From NCBI GenBank assembly GCA_008933995.1, contig WARS01000029.1, forward strand, positions 23,496,879 to 23,560,878: 64,000 nt of DNA. The letters are read 5' to 3'. A program made the position numbers and the translations under genes. Below the pieces are notes generated by a model. That model had not been told where the DNA came from. It made no database searches and saw only the letters and a list, made by a program, of their open reading frames with translations. Below are positions 36,982 through 48,981 of the stretch, in pieces. Every line of letters begins with the position of its first letter. The stretch's first letter is position 1. Source of the DNA: Datnioides undecimradiatus (lineage: Eukaryota > Chordata > Actinopteri > Lobotiformes > Datnioididae).

Positions 36982-39900
36982 ATGACTTCGTTGCAACACG
37001 TGAATCCCAGAGTGATGGGGATCAGAGTATCGCCTCACAGTGAACTGCAGAGTCTGGCTGCACGCATCACACGGCAGATTGCAAAGGTAAGTGCAGGCAG
37101 AGTGTCTTTGCTCATCTTTATTCACAGCTGCATCAGATGGGGCATCAGAATTACATCACTGCAAAGATCGGCATCCTCAGCGTGTCTGTCAGTGCTCACA
37201 GCGAGTGAGAGTTCAAGATCTGGACCAGGTTCAGAGCAGGGCTTTGGGTGGGGGACCAGATCCTAACGGTGGGGTCTGAGGGTTTACAGCAAACACTGGT
37301 GTTTTGTATTGTTAAGCCATTGACTGAGTGTCGCTCTGCTAGCTGTGCTCAGATTATGAAAACTGACTGATAATTAGAGAATCTACACATTTAAAACATT
37401 TTAACCACATGAAAACAAATTAGCATGAATATTTATAATGTATTATAATCTTCTAAATGAACCTTTATGCATTCATTTCTGACAGGGTGGATTAAACTGA
37501 CCCTGAGTCGGGTCAGTGATTCTGTGAACATTAAAATAACCATGAACATGTTTTCAGGTGTTTGAACTTTGACCCTTTCACAGTTTTTAATTAAAACAGT
37601 AACCTGGAGCACTTCTGTGGCCGGGTTCACAGTTTGGTTTTACTAGAAGAAACTTTATCGCTATCCAACATTAAAATCCAAATTAAAATCACAATCATAA
37701 TGTCAATTATACATGCAACATGCTAACCGAGCTGGCTAGCCATTAGCTGCTATGCTAATGGTAACTAGCAGAGCTGGGCTGGTGTTAGGTGGGTGGTCAT
37801 GACGCTAAACTTCAGCACAGGGGTCCATAAACCAACTGATGACGCCACAGCGGCTTCGTCCTACGAGCCTTTCTTGCATTAACGCCTCCTGTCCTGCAGG
37901 GGGAGCAGAGACCCTTCAAACAGGTGATTGACGTCAGCTCAGGTGATCCCCACAGCGCAGGACTGAAGCCCATCTCACTAGTTCGACAGGTTTGTTCCGC
38001 CGTTTACTTCAGCTGGACTAAAAACAGCTCACACACTTTTAATCTCAAATCATCAAATGTTATTACTGTCTGTATTTTGTCAGGTCTTTGCAGCGTGCAT
38101 GTACCCTGAGCTGCTGGATCATGAAGATCTTCCAGCAGATGTCAGGCACAGGGCTCGGAGGCTCCTGGAGGTCTGCTGCGGAGGGAGCGTGGGTGAGAAC
38201 TTCAACAAAAAGGGCAACTTGCATTTTAATGAATAAATGTGCAGAAACAGAGCAACCAACGCTCTGCTCCACAGGTTCCTACACACCCTCGTCTGGTATA
38301 CCTCAGGTCCGGCAAAGCATCGCTGAGTTCATCATGAGACGAGATGCTGGAGCGCCGTCAAATGCCAAAAACATCTTCATCTCAGCAGGTTCTGAGCAGG
38401 CTCTGACGGTATACAACACACAGTCATCACTCTTTCTTCAGACATTGTTTCCATCAGGTGGCACTGTGCTCACAGACAACTGAAGCTGGATGAGTCTGAT
38501 TTAAGATGCTCTGGTGTGCAGGAGGTGTGCGCACACACTGCACACACTGCACACCGTGCACACTGTCCTCTGTCAATCACCTGCATGTTTGCAGCATCAG
38601 ACATGGGTTTTCACACGTGATGAGTTTGCCTTGGTGTTAGCATAAGAACATATGAGTGCTGCACATGTAAAATAGACATGTACCATTAAAATATGCATGA
38701 TTTATATTCTATAAAGAGCTGTACAGTTTTAAAAAAAATGGCACATACAGGATGAACATACGCACTCAAAATAATAATGATAACAGACAGATAGATAGAT
38801 AAGTCAGTAGTCTGCAGACTTTTATTGCTTTATGCATTTTGTTATTTGTAATTGAGACGTTTGTTAATTTAATAAAAATACTTACTTTTCAGATACTTTA
38901 AAATCTCACACACGACAGACCAATTAAAACATTTATTACTGAAATTAATGTTATTATTTATCACATACCAGCAGCTGAACCTCAGAGGTTTCAGACAGGA
39001 GCACTGCAAAATGTTTGGAAATGACCTAAAGCACTTTATTTGGAGCTTTGGTGTCCAAACTGAGTGAGAAATCTGTAGAAAACTAGGAATGGAGGGTCAA
39101 AGTTAAACCCCTGGGTGTTGATGGACGCAGCCTGAAGAAGCTGTTTTAATTTTGTTTCTTTCTACAAATGATAAAATAAGTCTCTGAGATCAGATGCTGT
39201 GTGTTGGATCTCACTGATGTTAGCTCTGCAAAATAATAATAATGTTGTACATGATCCGTCGTGTTCAGGTGATCACGCACCTGATGATCAGCGGTGAGGG
39301 GGAGACTCAGACTGGCGTGTTGACCCCGATGCCCTGCCCACACACCCTGCCCCCGCTGCTGGATGGTGCAGGGGTGATGCTGGTGCCGTACCAGCTGATG
39401 GAGGACCGAGGCTGGGCTTTGGACCTGGACGAGCTGCACCGAGCGCTGCAGGCCGCTAGGGGGCGCTGCAGGCCCAGAGCCATTTACATCAGCAACCCAG
39501 GAAACCCCACAGGTAAATACAGATTGTAGCACATACAGCAGCTGCACTGAAGCCATCTGTGTAAACCTCCTCACTGTCATCACTGTGTTTGCTGCTCTTT
39601 GTCCTCCTAGGTCATCTGCAGGACAGGAAGTCCATACAGGAAGTGATCCGGTTTGCAGCAGCTCAGAGGCTCGTGCTGTTGGTTGACGAGGTGATCACAC
39701 ACAGACGCAACAGCAACGGCAGCCGTTTGCTCACACGGTCTCTCATTAAACACCTGTCGCCTTGCTGTGCGCTCCAGGTGTACCAGGACAGTGTGTGTGG
39801 ACACGGCAGAGAGTTTGTCTCCTATAAGAGAGTCCTGTTTGAGATGGACAGAGAGTACTCAGACACAGTGGAGTTGGTCTCCTTCCACTCTCTGTCCAGC

Positions 39901-41055
39901 GCCTGCATGGGAGAGTGAGTTCTGTCTGCTTATACTCATCAACAGCATCATGTGTGTGCGAGGGCATTAGTCAAGTGCATTTTCCGTATTTCATAATACA
40001 TAAAACATCCCATTGGCTCCTACTGAAAACATATATATTTGCAAAAACAGTCACAAACAGTTTAGTAATAATGTTTTTAATGTAAAATAAAATGTATTAT
40101 TGTATTGTTGCACCTCAGCATGACACACATCCACATTCCTGCTGTGCCTGTGTCCCAGGTGTGGTCTGCGTGCAGGATACATGGAGGTGGTCAACATGGA
40201 CCCAGAGGTGATGCATTGTGTCGACACCATGCTGTGCACTTACATCAGCGCTCCGGTCACAGGACAGCTCGCTCTGGATCTCATGGTCAACCCACCCACG
40301 CCTGGGGAGCCTTCCTACGACACGTACACACAGGTGACACACCTGCAGAGCGTCAAGATGTCTGATCTTCTCGGTTTCTGCCCAGTCTTTTATTAACTCA
40401 CAATCAAATCTCTGCTCTTCTCCTATGTGAAGGAGATTCGCCTCATTCGTGCCACTTTGTCCCAGAATGCTCAGCGGGCCTGGGGGTTCTTGAACGATCT
40501 ACCCGGGATCAGCTGTCAGCCAGTGATGGCTGGACTCTACCTGTATCCCCGCCTGCACTTACCAGCTGAGATGACAGAGCAGGCCAAGGTGGGAACATAT
40601 CACAACAACCTTCATGTGCATGAGACACAGTGTAGAGCAGCCCCCTGACTTTATGCATAGGTTTGCTATTTTCCCATGAGCTGCATTTAGTTTCTATTAC
40701 TGGTCATTCTAATTCTAATTAAGCACTCTGTGGTTGCTCTGTTTGAGGTGCTCTTCACTTGTTTTTAGATGTTGGAGCTGGAGGCCGACGTCCTGTATTG
40801 CCAGAGGTTACTGGAGGAAGAAGGTGTGCTTGTAGGCGTGGGATGTGCTGGAACAGCTGGCAGACACCATCTGAGGTGAGAGACATGATTCATTTCGATG
40901 AACTGGTTTGTCGCGTTTTCTCCGAAAGCAACTGTGTGATGTGATTCTTCTCTCTCAGGTTATGCGTCCTTGTTCCTCCCGAGGTCCTGGAGGAGGTGCT
41001 GGCTCGCCTCGGTTCCTTTCACCGCCGCCTCTTGTCAGGCGCCTCCTCACCCTGA
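36982..41055 (+). CDS. Alanine-aminotransferase-like protein, copy 1, catalytic lysine absent
   Basis: Fold-type I PLP aminotransferase homologue closest to GPT/ALT. Eleven in-phase coding exons: 36982-37086, 37900-37989, 38084-38192, 38275-38408, 39269-39512, 39611-39690, 39778-39914, 40159-40333, 40433-40588, 40769-40875, 40959-41055. They give 477 aa (human ALT1 496), with no mitochondrial presequence, so probably cytosolic. Kept from ALT: PFKQVIDVSSGD, PISLVRQV, YTPSSGI, SNPGNPTG, DEVYQD (Asp253, Tyr256), MGECGLRAGYMEVVN and the C-terminal HHLRL arginine. Lost: the Schiff-base lysine of STSKGYMG reads LSSACMG (Ser295, codon 39898-39900); the PQYPLY segment reads PCPHTL; and the GFGQREGTYHFR loop is shortened. 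Enzyme activity as a transaminase is therefore unlikely. All frames and splice sites are intact, so it is not an obvious pseudogene. Its tandem partner follows 958 bp downstream. Confidence 0.9.
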
Positions 41056-41141
41056 CAAACAGAGATGCAGGGGGGAATAATGCGGCACAACACGTAGCCA
41101 TGCTTGATCCCATCCAACACGCTCGGAGACATACTGAAATG

Positions 41142-41147
41142 AATAAA
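41142..41147 (+). terminator. Poly(A) signal of GPT-like copy 1
   Basis: AATAAA 87 bp after the stop codon. Confidence 0.75.
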
Positions 41148-41879
41148 CAACAGCTCGTGCGCCTTGTTTGAAAGTGCTGACTGAAAAGCTGCCCGACAGC
41201 TTGAAACAGGAAGATTACTGTTAAACGTCTCTGCAGCTCAGGCTGTGGATCACACTTATTCCTGTTTCGAAGGACAAATTGAAAGAATAACAGTATTTTG
41301 TTCTTCTGAAAAGTGCAAATAAAAAAATTTTAACGTATTCAACAAACTTTTATTTGCAGGGTCTGATATATCAACTATAAACAGAGCAAACAGCAGCAAA
41401 CATTTGATTAACAGTAAAGGAGTAAAACAAACTGTCAAACGATCCTCAAAGAGAGACAGGACAGGAAGGGTTGAGAGAGTGGAATCTGAAAAGTACCTAA
41501 AGCTAAATGTAATTAAGTAAAAATATTGTTCTGAGTTGTAGGGTGGAGGAAATCTGAAGCTGCCCGATATGGAAATACTCGAGTAACTTGAATTTCTACT
41601 TAGTTACTAAGTTACAGTCCGCCTGTGGGAGCTGCTGGTGTGAACAGAAAGACATAAAGTCCACATTCAAATAACTACATTTATATACACACACTGGACA
41701 AACTGAAGCGCTACAGTCACCTGTGATAATTTAAAAATGGTCACGTGATCAACTTCTGCCTCACAATAACTGGAAACTGCAGAACTGAGCATAATGTTGT
41801 TATGAGTCCACCTGCCAGTGGTAATACTTGTTTGTTGAGTGGTACTGTAGTACTTGTAGGATGGGTTTGCATGCATGAG
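41148..41879. other. Spacer between the two GPT-like genes
   Basis: No coding exon is seen. It holds an AT-rich stretch and a fragment of the 'agttactaagttac' teleost repeat around 41575-41620. Confidence 0.6.
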
Positions 41880-42120
41880 GAGCGTTGGCTCTCGCGATGC
41901 GCGCCCCCGCCGTCTGCACGCGCTCCCCCCACGGCGCACATTAATTCACCGAGACGTTCTCACGCTTCCGTGTTTAACTTCTCGTCGAGGATCTCATCGG
42001 CCAGACTGCGGAGATGAGCTCCGTGCTGGAGGTGAACCCCAGGGTGCGCGGCATCAGAGCCCCCACGAGCCTGCAGAGTCTGGCTGCGCGCGTGGCAGCG
42101 GAGATCGCACAGGTGAGTCA
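41880..42120 (+). promoter_or_regulatory. CpG-rich 5' end of GPT-like copy 2
   Basis: CpG density rises sharply from about 41890 through exon 1 (42014-42112), in contrast to copy 1, whose start lies in AT-rich sequence. The two copies thus probably have different promoters. No TATA box is seen. Confidence 0.5.
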
Positions 42121-45100
42121 CGCGGGCGTATTCACATTTTACGGAATCTTAAGTTTTCAGAGCGGTTTATTTTATTTTAGAAATAACTGATCGGGTGACT
42201 TCACACTTGCTGGACCCTTTACATCACACCCATACGCTCTAATCTAACCACAGTCACTACCTTTAACAGCAAAGCAGCCAAACAAAGCCAACACTGTGGC
42301 CGTCATTGTCATATTATCAATCAAACTGTTATCAGATCGTGACTGATGCATTATCATGTGTGCAGGGCTCCCTGCTGCAGCTCTTATGGCTTCATCTCAG
42401 AGTCTAGTCATTAACATCACATTTATTGGCTGATCACGTGCTTTGTAATTAAAACACACTGCAGAATGTGGAGTTGCAGGAAAATGGGAATACTTAGTTA
42501 TTCAGGCCTGTGCTGGTCATCGGGATCAATGAGAGTCCCCAGTGTGGGCTCGTTGTCCCAGGTTGGAAAATGAAATGTGAAGCTTTCACTTGCTCCCACA
42601 CACACACACACACCTCCACACCTCTTGGGAACAGACCCACCCAGCCCCACGTCCTCCGACCTGCTCGTGCTGAAACTTGTTATCTGCATGAAGCTTCCTC
42701 TGCACCGGGTTTGCCTGCGGTGTCTGTCAGGGGAGCACTCCCCAAGCTCTGACGCCACAGTGAATGAACCGTTCACACGTCTCTCTCGATCTTGCCTGTG
42801 GTTACTCATGATTTCAACTCGTTCTTCAGGTTTAACACCCCCCCAACCGTACGACTCGTTTGAAGCTCAGGCGCTCTATATCAGAAATATGCATTTTATC
42901 GTTACACACTGCACATGAGTTCATACTAACAGAATTCATGCTCTTTTCTTTTCTTTGGCCTCATGTTTACTTCCTGTCTTTACATATCAACCACACAGTG
43001 GTGATTGTGATGCATGCATCATGTTGTTTCCTGTGTGTGGGTTAATCTTCCTCCTCCTGCTGCAACTTCCTCTGAAGGAAGCGATAAAGGTTAGACAGAT
43101 GGCTGAGACTTCGTCATGAGTGCTTTGTATTTAGGAAATAAATCATAAGTTTAACTGTAACATGTTTTTTAGGTCTTTGGTCTTAGGGAAGCCCGAGTCC
43201 TGTATGCATGTCATAAAACTCTTTTTAATTTCACTTTAACACAGAAACTTTCAACATCACTACAACATACTGCACCGTAGCTACTTAGCTTAGCTTTTCT
43301 ACCGCTGTTAGAGGAAACGTATGATCTTCCTTGTGTGACTCATCTGAGCTATTATGGAAAAAACAAAATACAGTTTTTATGCATGCTTTAAATTTTGGAT
43401 TTCCAAAGAGGATGTTTCATTTTTAAGTTTAATTCTGTTAGGATACGTTTGATTGTGGTGTCTTGATGCTAATGTCTCTTAGCCCTGCACAGCTAACTGC
43501 TGCTTAATAACAGGACTCTATGGTTTCTATAGCATGGCTCTCAATATTCTCACTCCCTACTCGTCACATATGGATGATAGGTTGCTTTACTGGGTACTCC
43601 TTGAGCATCATTCCTCACAGGGCGGGGTCGTCCTCAGTGATGGAAATGGGCGACGTGACACCAGTGCCTGAAATGATTGAGGTTCAGTTCGGTGAAGACA
43701 TCAAACCAGGTTCCTCCTCACTGTATTGACAGATGACTCCTCACCAGGCGTCCAAATGTGACAAACTGGGATTGAGACTAAGTCGTATTTGGCAAACACA
43801 CATTTTTGTTTGTTTGCCTAAGCCTGGTTGATGATATTCTACCTCAAATCAGATGCAGTATACTGGACAAATCAGATGTTCCTCCCAGGGCTGATCATTA
43901 AACCAAAGAAATGTCACTTTTCAGGTTTGATGGCTTCCTGAACTGACAACAGGACTGTGATCTCGTCCCCTGGTTACTTTAATTATTAAGGACGAACTCT
44001 ATTGGTACACACAGTTCATGTGTTTCACAAAAGTTTCCTGTTTTTTTGGTCGTCAGCCATTTTTTCTTGCCATATCTCTCGTTGAAGAAGGTTAAACAGA
44101 TGAAAGGGCGGAGGATTAAATGAGACTGACAAGATTTAAAATTCCACCCCACCCGAGCTTGTGTCTAACCACACTGCGTTCCTCTCAGGGGGCAAAGAAA
44201 CCCTTCAAGACGGTGATTGATGTCAGCTCCGGTGATCCCCACAGGGCAGGAATGGCTCCCATCTCATTTGTTCGCCAGGTTGGTGTTTTAGATTTTACGT
44301 GTGTTCTCCTACCTGCTCTACCTGCTTCACTCGCCCCCGTGTGATCAGCCTGATAGCAACAAACTGAGCCTGTGTGCATGCTATTCGCCGTTTGTCTTCT
44401 CAGGTGCTTGCGGTGTGTTTTTACCCTGAGCTCCTCAAAGAGAAGAGGCTTCCTCCAGATGTCAGGCAGAGGGCGCAGAAGCTTCTCGGGAGCTGCGGTG
44501 GAGGAAGCGTGGGTCAGAATGAAAGACTTAAATTCATTTGTGCAGATTTGAGAAACATTTCTTTGTCTGGCGCCTCAGCTTCAATGGCTGATCCATCATT
44601 TTACCAATGACAGGTTCGTACTCTGCAACCTCCTGTGGTATACCGCTCGTCCAGAAAAGCATTGCTGAGTTCATCACGAGGCGAGACGGCGGAGTGGTTT
44701 CACACCCTGGAAACATCATTGTCTCCAGTGGTTGCCAGAAGACTTTGTCGGTATGATGTTTGTTTGGGGTATTGTCATGAAGAGCAATCAAAAAGATCAT
44801 AGGCTGCACCAATAACACGCTAATTTAGCCAAGCAGTCGCCTGCGATACAGTTCTCCCAGAGCTAATTCCACAACCAGGATCCCAAACACGCTCCTTTAA
44901 AACATTTGGTCTGCTCGCACCTGCTGCATGCTAATTAGCGTGCTGTGCTGTGCAACAGCACCATGTTGTCAGGTAAATATTTAAAGCTATAACCTGCATC
45001 TGTGTTTCCCATAATGCACATTCAAAATCCTGTAATCACCATAGAAATAACAATGCTGAGTGTACTGACAAGCAACAGCTCAGTGGATCGAGCTAAACGC

Positions 45101-48100
45101 TAACACCAGCATGCAAAGACACTCACAGTGACTATGCTAACATGCTGATTTACACTATCTTTAACATCTTACTTTAAAGTGCGATTTGCTGTTTATTTTA
45201 GTCATGAATTAGAATTTACTTCATGTTAAATACAATGTGTTATCTTTGTTTTGTGCTAAATGTGGGCGCTAGTAAATATTAGCACACTAACGCCCTGAAC
45301 TGTGATGACGAGCATGCAGACACTGCCCGCCTGCATGTTAAACACTGTCATCGTGAGACTTTAGTATCATTTCGTATGGTTTAAAAAGAAAAAACGGCAT
45401 GTTGTTAACTGTATTTTTGTTTGTTGTGTTAAGCTGGTGTTGCACCTGATGTCCAGCGGTGAGGGGGAGGCTCAGACTGGGGTGCTGACCCCGATGCCCT
45501 GCCCCCACACCCTGCCCCCGCTGCTGGATTTATCTGGGGTGACCCTGGTGCCGTACCGTCTGATGGAGGACCGAGGCTGGGCTTTGGACCTGGACGAGCT
45601 GCACCGAGCTCTGCAGGCAGCTAGGGGGCGCTGCAGGCCCAGAGCCATTTACATCAGCAACCCAGGAAACCCCACAGGTGAACCGCACACAGCAGCTGCA
45701 TCAGCTCATCTCCCTGCTTTAATCTCCCATACTCACCGTCATTTCCTCTGACAGGTCACGTGCAGGACAGGAGAACGATACAGGAAGTGATTCGTTTTGC
45801 TGCAGCCGAGGGTCTCGTCCTGTTGGCTGAAGAGGTGAGTACGAGCTGCACTAAGAAACAGAAATCCAGCTGACTTCTCATCAGTTTTCAGTCTCACACA
45901 CTGTTCCTCCTGCACCATCCAGGTGTACCAGGACAGCGTGCACGGACAGGACAAGCAGTTTATTTCCTATAAGAAAGTCCTGTTTGAGATGGGAGGACAG
46001 TACTCAGACACAGTGGAGCTGATCTCCTTTAACTCCCTATCCGGCCCCTGCATGGGAGAGTGAGTATCACTAATGAGAACACACCTGTGCACACACTCTT
46101 CATCGAAATCACCACTGTTCTGAACTCACAAAGCATTAAAATGATATTTCTTGTTTTTTATTGTAATATAGATGCAAAATATGACTGGTTGTGTGTTATA
46201 AAAGGGTTCAAAAGACATTTTTCATTTAATCCCAATATATCGTTTTATGGCCATGTTGACCGACTCGTATCACCTGTGATGGAGAGCAGTCTGGGTTGTG
46301 TAATAAGAAACTCAACATGACATCAACTGTTTCTTTCTTTTCATTTGAAAATATTTAACCAAAACCTAATCTTATTTTTAATTAACCAAACCTGGTGTCA
46401 AAGTCCTGGCTTCTCTGCGACTTTCACGCTGTAAATGCGAATCCAATAAATACGTGGTAATAAAGAGTGTAACATGAACACAGCTGCAGCCAACCCTCAA
46501 CCCTCAGGTGACTGCAGGCTCACTGCGCTCTGTGCTCACCTGCGTGCAGGTGTGGCCTGAGAGGAGCTTATATGGAGGTAATCAACATGGACCCGGCTGT
46601 CAGTCAGTTTCTAAAAACTATGCAGGCCACGTCCAGCCCTCCGGTGCCACCGCAGCTTGCCCTGGAGGTCATGGTCAACCCACCCTCACCTGGAGACCCT
46701 TCGTATGAAACGTACACACAGGTGAGGAGAAAAAACATTTAATCAAACGTTTTCTGTCAAAATAATGTCTGAAGCTGGAAACACTGGCAAAATACACAAC
46801 ATTATAACTGTTTAATTATCATTATTTTGTTACCTAAAGTGAAAAATCTATTAATTAGTCAACAGGATCTTATTTTTAAAGTAGGAAACATTTTATTAAT
46901 TTACCATTAATTTATATTTAAATATTTAGACATGATTTAATTTACAAAATCTTGAAAATTATGAAACAATTTTTCTAATTTTCCATAAATGATCACACTT
47001 CCAATACCTTAAATAAAGAATCTGGCTTGCTGATTGGATCAGAGTGTGTTACATCATTATTTTGTATTATTAATTATTAATTAAATCACCTCATAACACA
47101 GACAGTCATTGTAGATGAAAATGAAAACTATCTTATTATCACATCCTGAAATTTACTCTAACTGAGCTAACTCAGCTAATGGTAGCCACAGTTAGCAACA
47201 GTTAGCTGTTACCTAGCAACAGGTAAAGGTATCTCTCCAACAGGAAGCTGCTGTAACCAGAGCTCGTCTCTCTTTGTCCCACAATCGCAGGAGGTTCTTC
47301 ACACCCAGACGACGCTCTCCCAGAATGCTCAGCGCGCCTGTGAGCTGCTCAACGACCTTCCAGGGGTGAAGTGCCAGGCGGCGATGGCGGGACCTTTTCT
47401 TTATCCGCGCCTGCGTTTACCACCTTGGGTGATGGAGGAGGCCAAGGTGAGGAGGCTGTGCAGAAACCTTCTCCACCAGGTTTTACTGCAGCGCTTTGAA
47501 TTTAGCTTATAAATACTGTGAAAGGTGATTTAAAGGTTGACATCTTTACTCTTTCCTGATGTTTCTAAAGCGTTATTAGCATCAATAATACCTAATTAAC
47601 ATGAATATACATTTGATGTTGGTCGTGTCATAAAGGGATTAATATATTTTTCCATCTTGAGCTTAAACTCAGTCGTTCAGTCCTGTGATGTGATGGGTAA
47701 AAAGCAAATTGTGCTGCGTTTTCCTTCATTTAAATCTCACATCATGCACTGAAACACTGTAATTTAGCCGACGGGAGTCCTCACAGGTGTTTTAGGCTTC
47801 TGCCCCTGATTTCAGATGCTGGGAGTGCAGGCAGACGTGCTTTACTGTCAGCGGCTCCTGGAGGAGGAGGGCGTGTGTTTGGGAGCGGGATGTGAGAACG
47901 GACAGGAGGAGCGTAGCTATCACATCAGGTAGGAAAACACCTGAGGCTGTGTTTGGTTTGAGAGTGTTTCCTGAAACTCAGTGACAGTTTTGGAAAGTGG
48001 GGGCATTCAGAGAAGACACTGCAGCTTGTGGAAACTTTTATTTTTTGGAAACTGAGGTCACTTTATGAAAGATTTTGGGGAAACCAAACTGACAATATGG

Positions 48101-48981
48101 AACATTTCTGCATTACAATGTCTAAAAACAGCCAGACCTGTTGTTCTACATGTTGTTGGGTTGTGTTTTTACTTGATCTCAGGTGTTTCCATCAGTTTCA
48201 CCTCAGAGACTGAATCCAGATCAGGCTCTGTGATCGGCTTCACTTCCTGTCTGTGGTGTCACCGCCTCCTGTCTGTGCACGTGTCAGTTTATCAAGCTGT
48301 GTCAGCAGCTTGATAAACTGACTCTGGATCAGCTGTAAGACACATTTCTGTGCTCCTCTTTTCAGCCGCTGCTTGTTTTTAACTCTGTATCTGAAGCAGA
48401 TGAAGGATTTCAGTCGTCGGACGTCTGGATCTGAAGTTATCAGAGAAACAAGCTGAGCAAACGTTAGCAGCAGCTCGGCTCGCCGCCCCTCCAGGACGTC
48501 CCGTGTGCGGCCGACAGCGTGGGAGAAACAGTGGTTTTTAAGGTGGAACTGCTTTATTCAGTGTTTCTCTGGGTTTGAATCAGCAGCTCTCATCATGAGA
48601 GTCAGTGTGCAATGAAAGGTCAAAGGTCTACTTGAACTGTCGGGTCTTTAAGGGCACGGCCAGTATTCAGAGCTGCTTCTCAGTTAAAGGTGATGTTATT
48701 CATTATCATTAATGTTTCACATTTAAACCAACAGCTCAAGGAAACCAGCATCATGTGTTTGTGCAGAGCGTCTGTGCCCTGGGAGCCTGAGGACAACGAA
48801 GATCAGTTCACACACGTGTCCACTCCTGCTTCAGGTGCAGGTGTGTCCATGGGTTGATGTTCTCTGTGTCTCTGTGTTTCCCACCCACAGGCTGTGTGTG
48901 TTGGCTCCACCTGCTGCTCTGGAGGAGGTCCTGGCACGCCTTCGCTCTTTCCACCTGCGCCTGCTGGACGGATTTCCCTGA
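42014..48981 (+). CDS. Alanine-aminotransferase-like protein, copy 2, catalytic lysine absent
   Basis: Tandem paralogue of the preceding gene with the same intron positions and phases. Exons: 42014-42112, 44189-44278, 44404-44512, 44614-44750, 45434-45677, 45755-45834, 45923-46059, 46550-46721, 47291-47446, 47816-47928, 48891-48981; 475 aa. It is closer to ALT than copy 1 at its start (GAKKPFKTVIDV, VLAVCFYPELL, RRDGG) but more degraded at the cofactor site. The lysine position is Gly294 (LSGPCMG, codon 46043-46045). The aspartate that pairs with the PLP ring nitrogen is glutamate (AEEVYQD, Glu252, codon 45829-45831). The PQYPLY tyrosine is lost. SNPGNPTG, ECGLRGAY and the terminal YHIRL arginine are kept. 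Ligand binding through the two arginines is conceivable; ALT catalysis is not expected. Intron 1 is long (2.1 kb), and intron 10 carries repeat copy C. Frames are intact, so I call it a gene rather than a pseudogene. Confidence 0.9.
45040..45310. repeat. TAGC-rich teleost repeat fragment in GPT-like copy 2 intron 4
   Basis: Repeated words such as 'atgctaacatgctgat' and 'gctaacaccagcatgcaaag' resemble the cluster at 19800-19915. No coding capacity. Confidence 0.5.
48105..48590 (+). repeat. Interspersed repeat family R1, copy C
   Basis: About 485 bp within intron 10 of GPT-like copy 2. Its right part, 48302-48590 (289 bp), aligns without gaps to 59309-59597; I see only a couple of mismatches (for example ctcgccg/ctcaccg and agcagctct/agcggctct). 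It contains a perfect hairpin: CAGTTTATCAAGCTG at 48285-48299 and CAGCTTGATAAACTG at 48306-48320, with a 6 nt loop. Confidence 0.9.

Follow-up and report, generated by a model that had tools for sequence, protein, structure and literature searches.

What can two genes for alanine aminotransferase-like proteins be doing in a fish genome when neither encodes the Schiff-base lysine of the enzyme? In alanine aminotransferase (ALT) this lysine forms the internal aldimine with pyridoxal phosphate (PLP), the vitamin B6 cofactor. The question is raised by a head-to-tail pair of genes on the + strand, called copy 1 and copy 2 below, in a 64,000-nucleotide stretch of the Datnioides undecimradiatus genome (contig WARS01000029.1, positions 23,496,879 to 23,560,878 of the forward strand). 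We refer to this whole stretch as the window, and the pair is known here from genomic DNA alone. Comparison with relatives leads us to give a probability of about one in two to the reading that the two genes are tandem members of a teleost ALT-like pseudoenzyme family, maintained as pseudo-transaminases with a kept anion pocket and serving as a ligand sensor or partner subunit. That they encode maintained proteins without normal transaminase catalysis appears very probable.

Two open genes without the Schiff-base lysine

Copy 1 spans 36982-41055, and its spliced model joins 11 exons (36982-37086, 37900-37989, 38084-38192, 38275-38408, 39269-39512, 39611-39690, 39778-39914, 40159-40333, 40433-40588, 40769-40875 and 40959-41055) into a protein of 477 amino acids (aa). 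Copy 2 spans 42014-48981, also with 11 exons (42014-42112, 44189-44278, 44404-44512, 44614-44750, 45434-45677, 45755-45834, 45923-46059, 46550-46721, 47291-47446, 47816-47928 and 48891-48981), and encodes 475 aa. Both frames are open, with 477 and 475 codons before the stop; each of the 20 introns has GT-AG borders, and the intron phases 0,0,1,0,1,0,2,0,0,2 are identical in the two copies. An Aminotran_1_2 domain (PF00155) was detected in each, at 120.7 bits in copy 1 and 100.5 bits in copy 2 (cut-off 19.7).

At the position equivalent to K314 of human ALT1, copy 1 has Ser295 (AGC, 39898-39900, + strand) and copy 2 has Gly294 (GGC, 46043-46045, + strand). The codons were read directly and the flanking block anchors the alignment at this site. 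The residues and coordinates, like the exon counts, phases, splice borders and frame lengths when both models were rebuilt, are as given in the preliminary description. The observation of a lysine-less ALT-like pair is correct. That description had also named an alternative exon restoring the lysine as a finding that would overturn it; a tblastn scan of the window found no second exon 7 of this kind. A motif scan for a lysine exon found none either, but the motif is split by an intron and a real exon 7 would be equally invisible to that scan.

To place the pair among the ALT genes of the same genome we scanned 581 Mb in 497 contigs with human ALT1 as query, which gave at least 40 matches, and built gene models outside the window with a small spliced-alignment script. 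Three canonical ALT genes that keep the lysine were found (C476 338-351 kb, C389 about 2170-2179 kb and C12 about 2209-2213 kb), together with a diverged ALT-like gene, L033, which also keeps it (G000:C476 about 1966-1971 kb). Numbered as in the window copies, exons 2-10 of the three canonical genes measure 90, 109, 134, 244, 80, 137, 175, 156 and 113 bases. Copy 1 differs from this series by one change (exon 10, 6 bases shorter) and copy 2 by two (exon 4, 3 bases longer; exon 8, 3 bases shorter). Since exons 2-10 match the canonical lengths in all but these three changes, the exon joins are not due to chance. Between the copies themselves, five of the 11 exons are unequal in length, every gap being 3 or 6 bases. 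An automatic spliced alignment guided by human ALT1 joined exons 1 and 2 of copy 1 differently and shortened its last exon; we kept the hand model because the start of P0003, a sea bass relative, agrees with it.

Distribution and history of the loss

We use family A for the teleost lysine-less ALT-like group and family B for a separate ALT-like group to which L033 belongs; the grouping was made in this analysis. With copy 1 as query, 379 proteins matched at E<=1e-20, and the best 120 of the 379 were examined. Fish names were found throughout, save for one unnamed row, and medaka is represented by a family A protein. Two rows (797 and 804 aa) were omitted from the column counts because of their length and have Asn at the lysine site as judged by motif. 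None of the other 118 rows has lysine there (S57 C25 N20 T11 A4 G1). With the genome's own lysine-bearing ALT-like gene as query there were 2524 matches, and the best 120 contained 119 new rows, of which one (709 aa) was dropped; the lysine column of the 118 retained rows reads K114 Q3 N1. A third search, with a whitefish family A protein, gave 531 matches, with 23 new rows among the best 120. The new rows include Asn at the site in one Megalops row, cod and burbot, Arg in Albula, one Anguilla row and Synaphobranchus, and Lys in Hypomesus (P0244) and Brienomyrus (P0251), both family-A-like. Rows from Paramormyrops and second rows from Megalops and Anguilla also have lysine and were placed outside the lysine-less groups. 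No otocephalan fish (zebrafish, herring, catfish) was present among the best 120 of the 379, 2524 and 531 matches. The family-A-like proteins of Synaphobranchus, Albula and Anguilla (P0248, P0249 and P0255) combine Arg at the lysine site with Asn in place of the Asp that pairs with the pyridine N1.

A FastTree phylogeny of all 266 rows under 600 aa placed 132 rows in a euteleost family A clade (77 of copy-1 type and 37 of copy-2 type), 122 in family B and 12 elsewhere. Each database row stands for a cluster at 90%, and isoforms of a single gene can take up more than one row (for example P0016 and P0098), so these are counts of rows and not of species. The lysine column of the euteleost A clade reads S59 N28 C25 T12 A5 G2 K1, and that of family B K118 Q3 N1. 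The survey of this site in other teleosts proposed in the preliminary description finds the loss common to the clade, in 131 of 132 rows. In family B the lysine is gone from four of the 122 rows, with Gln in Chelmon, Chaetodon and one unnamed row and Asn in Mola.

Could the missing lysine be an artefact of gene modelling or assembly? We found no point in favour of this explanation, and against it stand the lysine-less state of 131 of 132 clade rows from many species, the canonical exon lengths and the lack of an alternative exon 7 in the window. Its probability is close to nil.

For the history of the loss we selected 65 rows, removed the lysine column and built an IQ-TREE phylogeny rooted between ALT-like and canonical ALT proteins. 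Support was 100/100 for the separation of ALT-like from canonical ALT, 100/98 for family B and 100/99 for euteleost family A. Copies 1 and 2 both fall among the teleost proteins that lack the lysine, away from family B and canonical ALT. Percomorph family A splits in two, with support of 100/99 for the copy-1 type and 100/100 for the copy-2 type. The preliminary description had the same residue lost separately in the two copies. We reject independent loss, because the A clade, with Asn at its root, was already without lysine before the copy-1 and copy-2 types split. On this tree the lysine was lost before the tandem duplication, and the pair descends from an ancestor that already had Asn at the site. 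For the family as a whole, two or more losses are possible; a history in which the lysine-less rows arose once and Hypomesus regained the lysine was not rejected by the approximately unbiased test (P 0.511, for a group named after the tree had been seen).

Two database rows deserve mention in their own right. P0001, a 797-aa protein from Diretmus, contains two ALT-like motif blocks with Asn at the site in both. It is probably two tandem copies fused in annotation, in which case it would hint that a tandem duplication is older than the percomorphs. P0112, a family A row of copy-2 type with 456 aa, comes from a contig of 1,931 bases. A contig of this length has no room for a gene with introns of the kind present in copies 1 and 2, so P0112 is probably a transcript.

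Constraint on the family and its pocket

Neither copy shows the marks of a pseudogene, a broken frame or a ratio of nonsynonymous to synonymous change (dN/dS) near 1. By the Nei-Gojobori method the 472 codons compared between copy 1 and copy 2 give a dN/dS of 0.315; without exon 5, 391 codons remain and the value is 0.278. Both values indicate purifying selection. Neutral duplicates this diverged would hardly keep both frames open. A maintained non-transaminase role, as proposed in the preliminary description, is likely because the loss is common to nearly the whole clade, both frames are open and dN/dS is about 0.3.

An opposing explanation is that the duplicates bring the fish no benefit and are decaying or under relaxed constraint. 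The end branch of copy 1 is rather long (0.21 against a median of 0.16), and outside the pocket the columns of family A are slightly more variable than those of lysine-bearing family B (mean entropy 1.094 against 0.965), as decay would predict. However, the low dN/dS and open frames are not what decay would leave, the mean node-to-tip length is much the same in A (1.07) and in lysine-bearing B (1.01), and 58 columns of the human ALT1 numbering (one of them mostly gaps) reach at least 98% constancy in A when gaps are ignored. The near confinement of the lysine column to small residues also speaks against decay, which we consider improbable.

This last property was examined by simulation. Within the A clade the lysine column has undergone at least 27 changes from a root Asn, and 131 of 132 tips carry S, T, C, A, G or N. 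We simulated 4000 columns from an Asn start under the LG matrix; 1889 came within three changes of the observed number, and none of these 1889 was equally confined to small residues. Among the 48 gap-free A columns with 21-33 changes, the lysine column is the only one so confined. The small size could be needed either by a ligand or by packing.

Residue roles in the pocket are given here in human ALT1 positions. We take Y123 to be the interface Tyr that reaches across the dimer, R467 the Arg that holds the substrate carboxylate, S311 and R323 the Ser and Arg of the phosphate site, Y189 the Tyr that stacks on the PLP ring and D272 the Asp to the pyridine N1. The equivalents of R467, S311, R323 and Y123 are all present in both copies. 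In euteleost family A, Y123 is found in 132 of 132 rows, R467 in all 125 rows with a letter (7 gaps), S311 in 129 of 132 and R323 in 125 of 131; N241 (132/132), N244 (115/132) and Y275 (112/132) are other kept positions. Mean entropy over the pocket columns is lower in A (0.577) than in lysine-bearing B (0.641), even though the columns outside the pocket vary more in A.

The face of the pocket toward the PLP ring has changed. The ring-face segment in A reads P-C-P-H-T-L-P, and its columns are more constant in A than in B. In thirteen columns at least 90% of A shares a residue that differs from the four canonical rows and occurs in under half of B; positions 189, 192 and 193 lie in the ring-stacking segment, 195 just after it, 240 just before NPGNPTG and the remaining eight elsewhere. 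At the N1 position, Asp is found in 74 of 77 rows of copy-1 type and Glu in 31 of 37 rows of copy-2 type; copy 1 itself has Asp and copy 2 Glu. The S161 equivalent is Glu in copy 1 and Gln in copy 2, and the D162 equivalent is Gln in copy 1 and Lys in copy 2. We also considered a lysine migrated to position 162 and rejected it. Arg or Lys occupies this position in 96 of 132 A rows, but it is hardly a replacement Schiff-base residue because Arg (62) is commoner than Lys (34) and copy 1 has Gln.

Exon 5 has a history of its own. Exon 5 of copy 1 (39269-39512, + strand) is likely a gene-conversion tract, with exon 5 of copy 2 (45434-45677, + strand) as its partner. The two are 91% identical in DNA, with a silent difference of 0.126 compared to 0.51 over the other exons, and share identical blocks of 60 bases (39455/45620) and 50 bases (39395/45560). 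A protein tree of exon 5 (81 columns, read for topology) pairs the copies within species in three of 11 species (D. undecimradiatus, Amphiprion and Channa), and the remainder of the protein sets copy 1 apart from copy 2. Conversion is likely limited to exon 5 and apparently recurrent.

Possible roles and known systems

How might a lysine-less ALT-like protein be of use? A family A protein would still form the fold-type-I dimer and would bind an anionic ligand between the R467 equivalent and a phosphate cup made of S311, R323 and Y123 of the other subunit, to which the Arg or Lys at 162 may add. Candidate ligands are an amino or keto acid, pyridoxamine phosphate (PMP) or a non-covalently held PLP-amino-acid adduct. 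Without the lysine the ligand would not be turned over by normal transamination, so its binding would act as a signal, suggesting a role as ligand sensor or regulatory protein. Whether the ligand-binding pocket is the feature being maintained we judge to be evenly balanced. Tentatively, we propose that a teleost aminotransferase, by removal of its Schiff-base lysine, became a regulatory subunit or a sensor that binds a metabolite non-covalently. In euteleosts the vacated site would be kept small, leaving room for an amino or keto acid (perhaps adducted to PLP or PMP) to bind without being turned over. A tandem duplication in the spiny-rayed fishes would have produced two forms that differ at the pyridine-N1 position, where proteins of copy-1 type mostly have Asp and those of copy-2 type mostly Glu.

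Several points weigh against a maintained anion pocket of this kind. The residue roles follow aspartate aminotransferase numbering, and the list of pocket columns was picked by hand after the alignments had been seen. The test of the pocket set for A minus B is weak (P 0.106 with column 314 and 0.045 without it). Binding of the PLP cofactor may be lost altogether, because the ring-stacking Tyr is Pro in both copies and in 128 of 132 euteleost A rows, position 161 is Gln in 113 of 130 A rows with a letter, and the N1 Asp is kept in only 85 of 131 rows (D85 E32 N12 L1 Q1, one gap). A buried position could need a small residue for packing alone, and when the simulation was run at a lower rate, averaging 11 changes, 1% of 200 columns were just as confined to small residues. 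The small-residue rule is limited to euteleost A; Arg stands at the site in three of the four A-like rows from elopomorphs, and Hypomesus reads Lys. Finally, the A rows are database protein models, a source prone to omit pseudogenes.

Another possibility is that family A provides an inert partner, pairing with a lysine-bearing ALT or family B subunit and completing or tuning its active site in trans, as SPTLC1 does with SPTLC2. The invariance of Y123, taken above as the cross-dimer residue, would fit such a partnership, and the genome offers possible partners in the lysine-bearing family B gene and the three canonical ALT genes. There is also a precedent in serine palmitoyltransferase, whose LCB1 subunit is without the PLP lysine and pairs with LCB2 as a heterodimer (PMC3794620). 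Like SPTLC1/LCB1, the fish proteins are maintained homologues of PLP enzymes without the PLP lysine; unlike them, SPTLC1/LCB1 belongs to a different family, is membrane-bound and has LCB2 as an established partner. A purely trans role, however, needs neither R467 nor the phosphate-cup residues, which are expected to serve a protein's own site and are kept. Such an inert partner is rather unlikely in our view.

It could also be speculated that the proteins catalyze a reaction without an internal aldimine, such as slow transamination from PMP or a PLP-free reaction. The kept substrate and phosphate residues and the new conserved P-C-P-H-T-L-P motif at the ring face are consistent with this. However, the N1 Asp is often replaced, and the residue at the lysine site varies among S, N, C, T, A and G, with Ala or Gly, hardly a catalytic base, in seven of 132 rows including copy 2. 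The new chemistry suggested in the preliminary description is unlikely to come from the replacing residue because that residue is not conserved, and lysine-independent catalysis in general seems improbable.

Compared with known systems, the closest solved structure to P0003, the close relative of copy 1 noted above, is 3ihj (human ALT2), followed by 3tcm. The pair has the fold family and Pfam domain of vertebrate GPT and GPT2 as well as their exon lengths and phases, and likewise keeps the interface Tyr, the substrate Arg and the Ser and Arg of the phosphate site. It differs from them in the missing Schiff-base lysine, the ring-stacking Tyr changed to Pro, the altered positions 161 and 162 and, in copy 2, Glu for the N1 Asp. 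With family B the pair shares the ALT-like branch apart from canonical ALT (100/100), and family B and most of A have V-I-D-V..G-D-P-H-R and Q161 in common. Unlike A, family B has lysine in 118 of 122 rows, and in 119 of 122 the residue at position 189 is His, Tyr or Phe; its database names are, for example, "alanine aminotransferase 2-like" or "1-like". Elsewhere in the window lie parts of two neighboring genes, for a nicotinate phosphoribosyltransferase (PF17767, 1728-2198) and a trypsin-family protease (PF00089, 52691-53200). A search of NCBIfam with three proteins matched 57, 52 and 51 families, of which the 25 listed in each case were all below their cut-offs.

To our knowledge, few lysine-less relatives of PLP enzymes that have been kept for long are known, SPTLC1 being one. 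The zebrafish gene si:ch211-217a12.1, which we take to be ALT-like, is named in two papers, in one passage as an entry in a bare gene list. Yeast Alt2 is a kept paralogue of Alt1 that has no ALT activity although its catalytic residues are present and a Schiff base is formed (PMC3458083, PMC5960717). Like the fish proteins it is a retained ALT-type paralogue, but it keeps the lysine that they lack. The label "alanine aminotransferase 2-like", which may mean A, B or canonical ALT, is carried by two of the genes most induced in olive flounder liver after exposure to bisphenol S and benzo[a]pyrene (PMC5929548) and by one transcript in a study of rainbow trout muscle (PMC5976669). By term search, aminotransferase, transaminase and pyridoxal are all absent from a 2023 review of pseudoenzymes (PMC10211241), and "pseudoenzyme", "catalytic lysine" and "teleost" from a 2022 review of aminotransferase evolution (PMC9309667).

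We conclude that the pair belongs to a real, conserved pseudo-transaminase family with its function discernible in outline only. No description of a lysine-less fish ALT was found among the papers listed from the open-licence literature, as judged by titles and abstract openings. The loss extends over a broad range of euteleosts, and a lysine-bearing sister family in the same genome serves as a control. If it is true that the pocket still binds a ligand, the family would be a ready test case for the change from enzyme to sensor. These data also suggest that many fish genes named "alanine aminotransferase 2-like" may not be ALTs, which would affect studies that read the expression of such genes as ALT.

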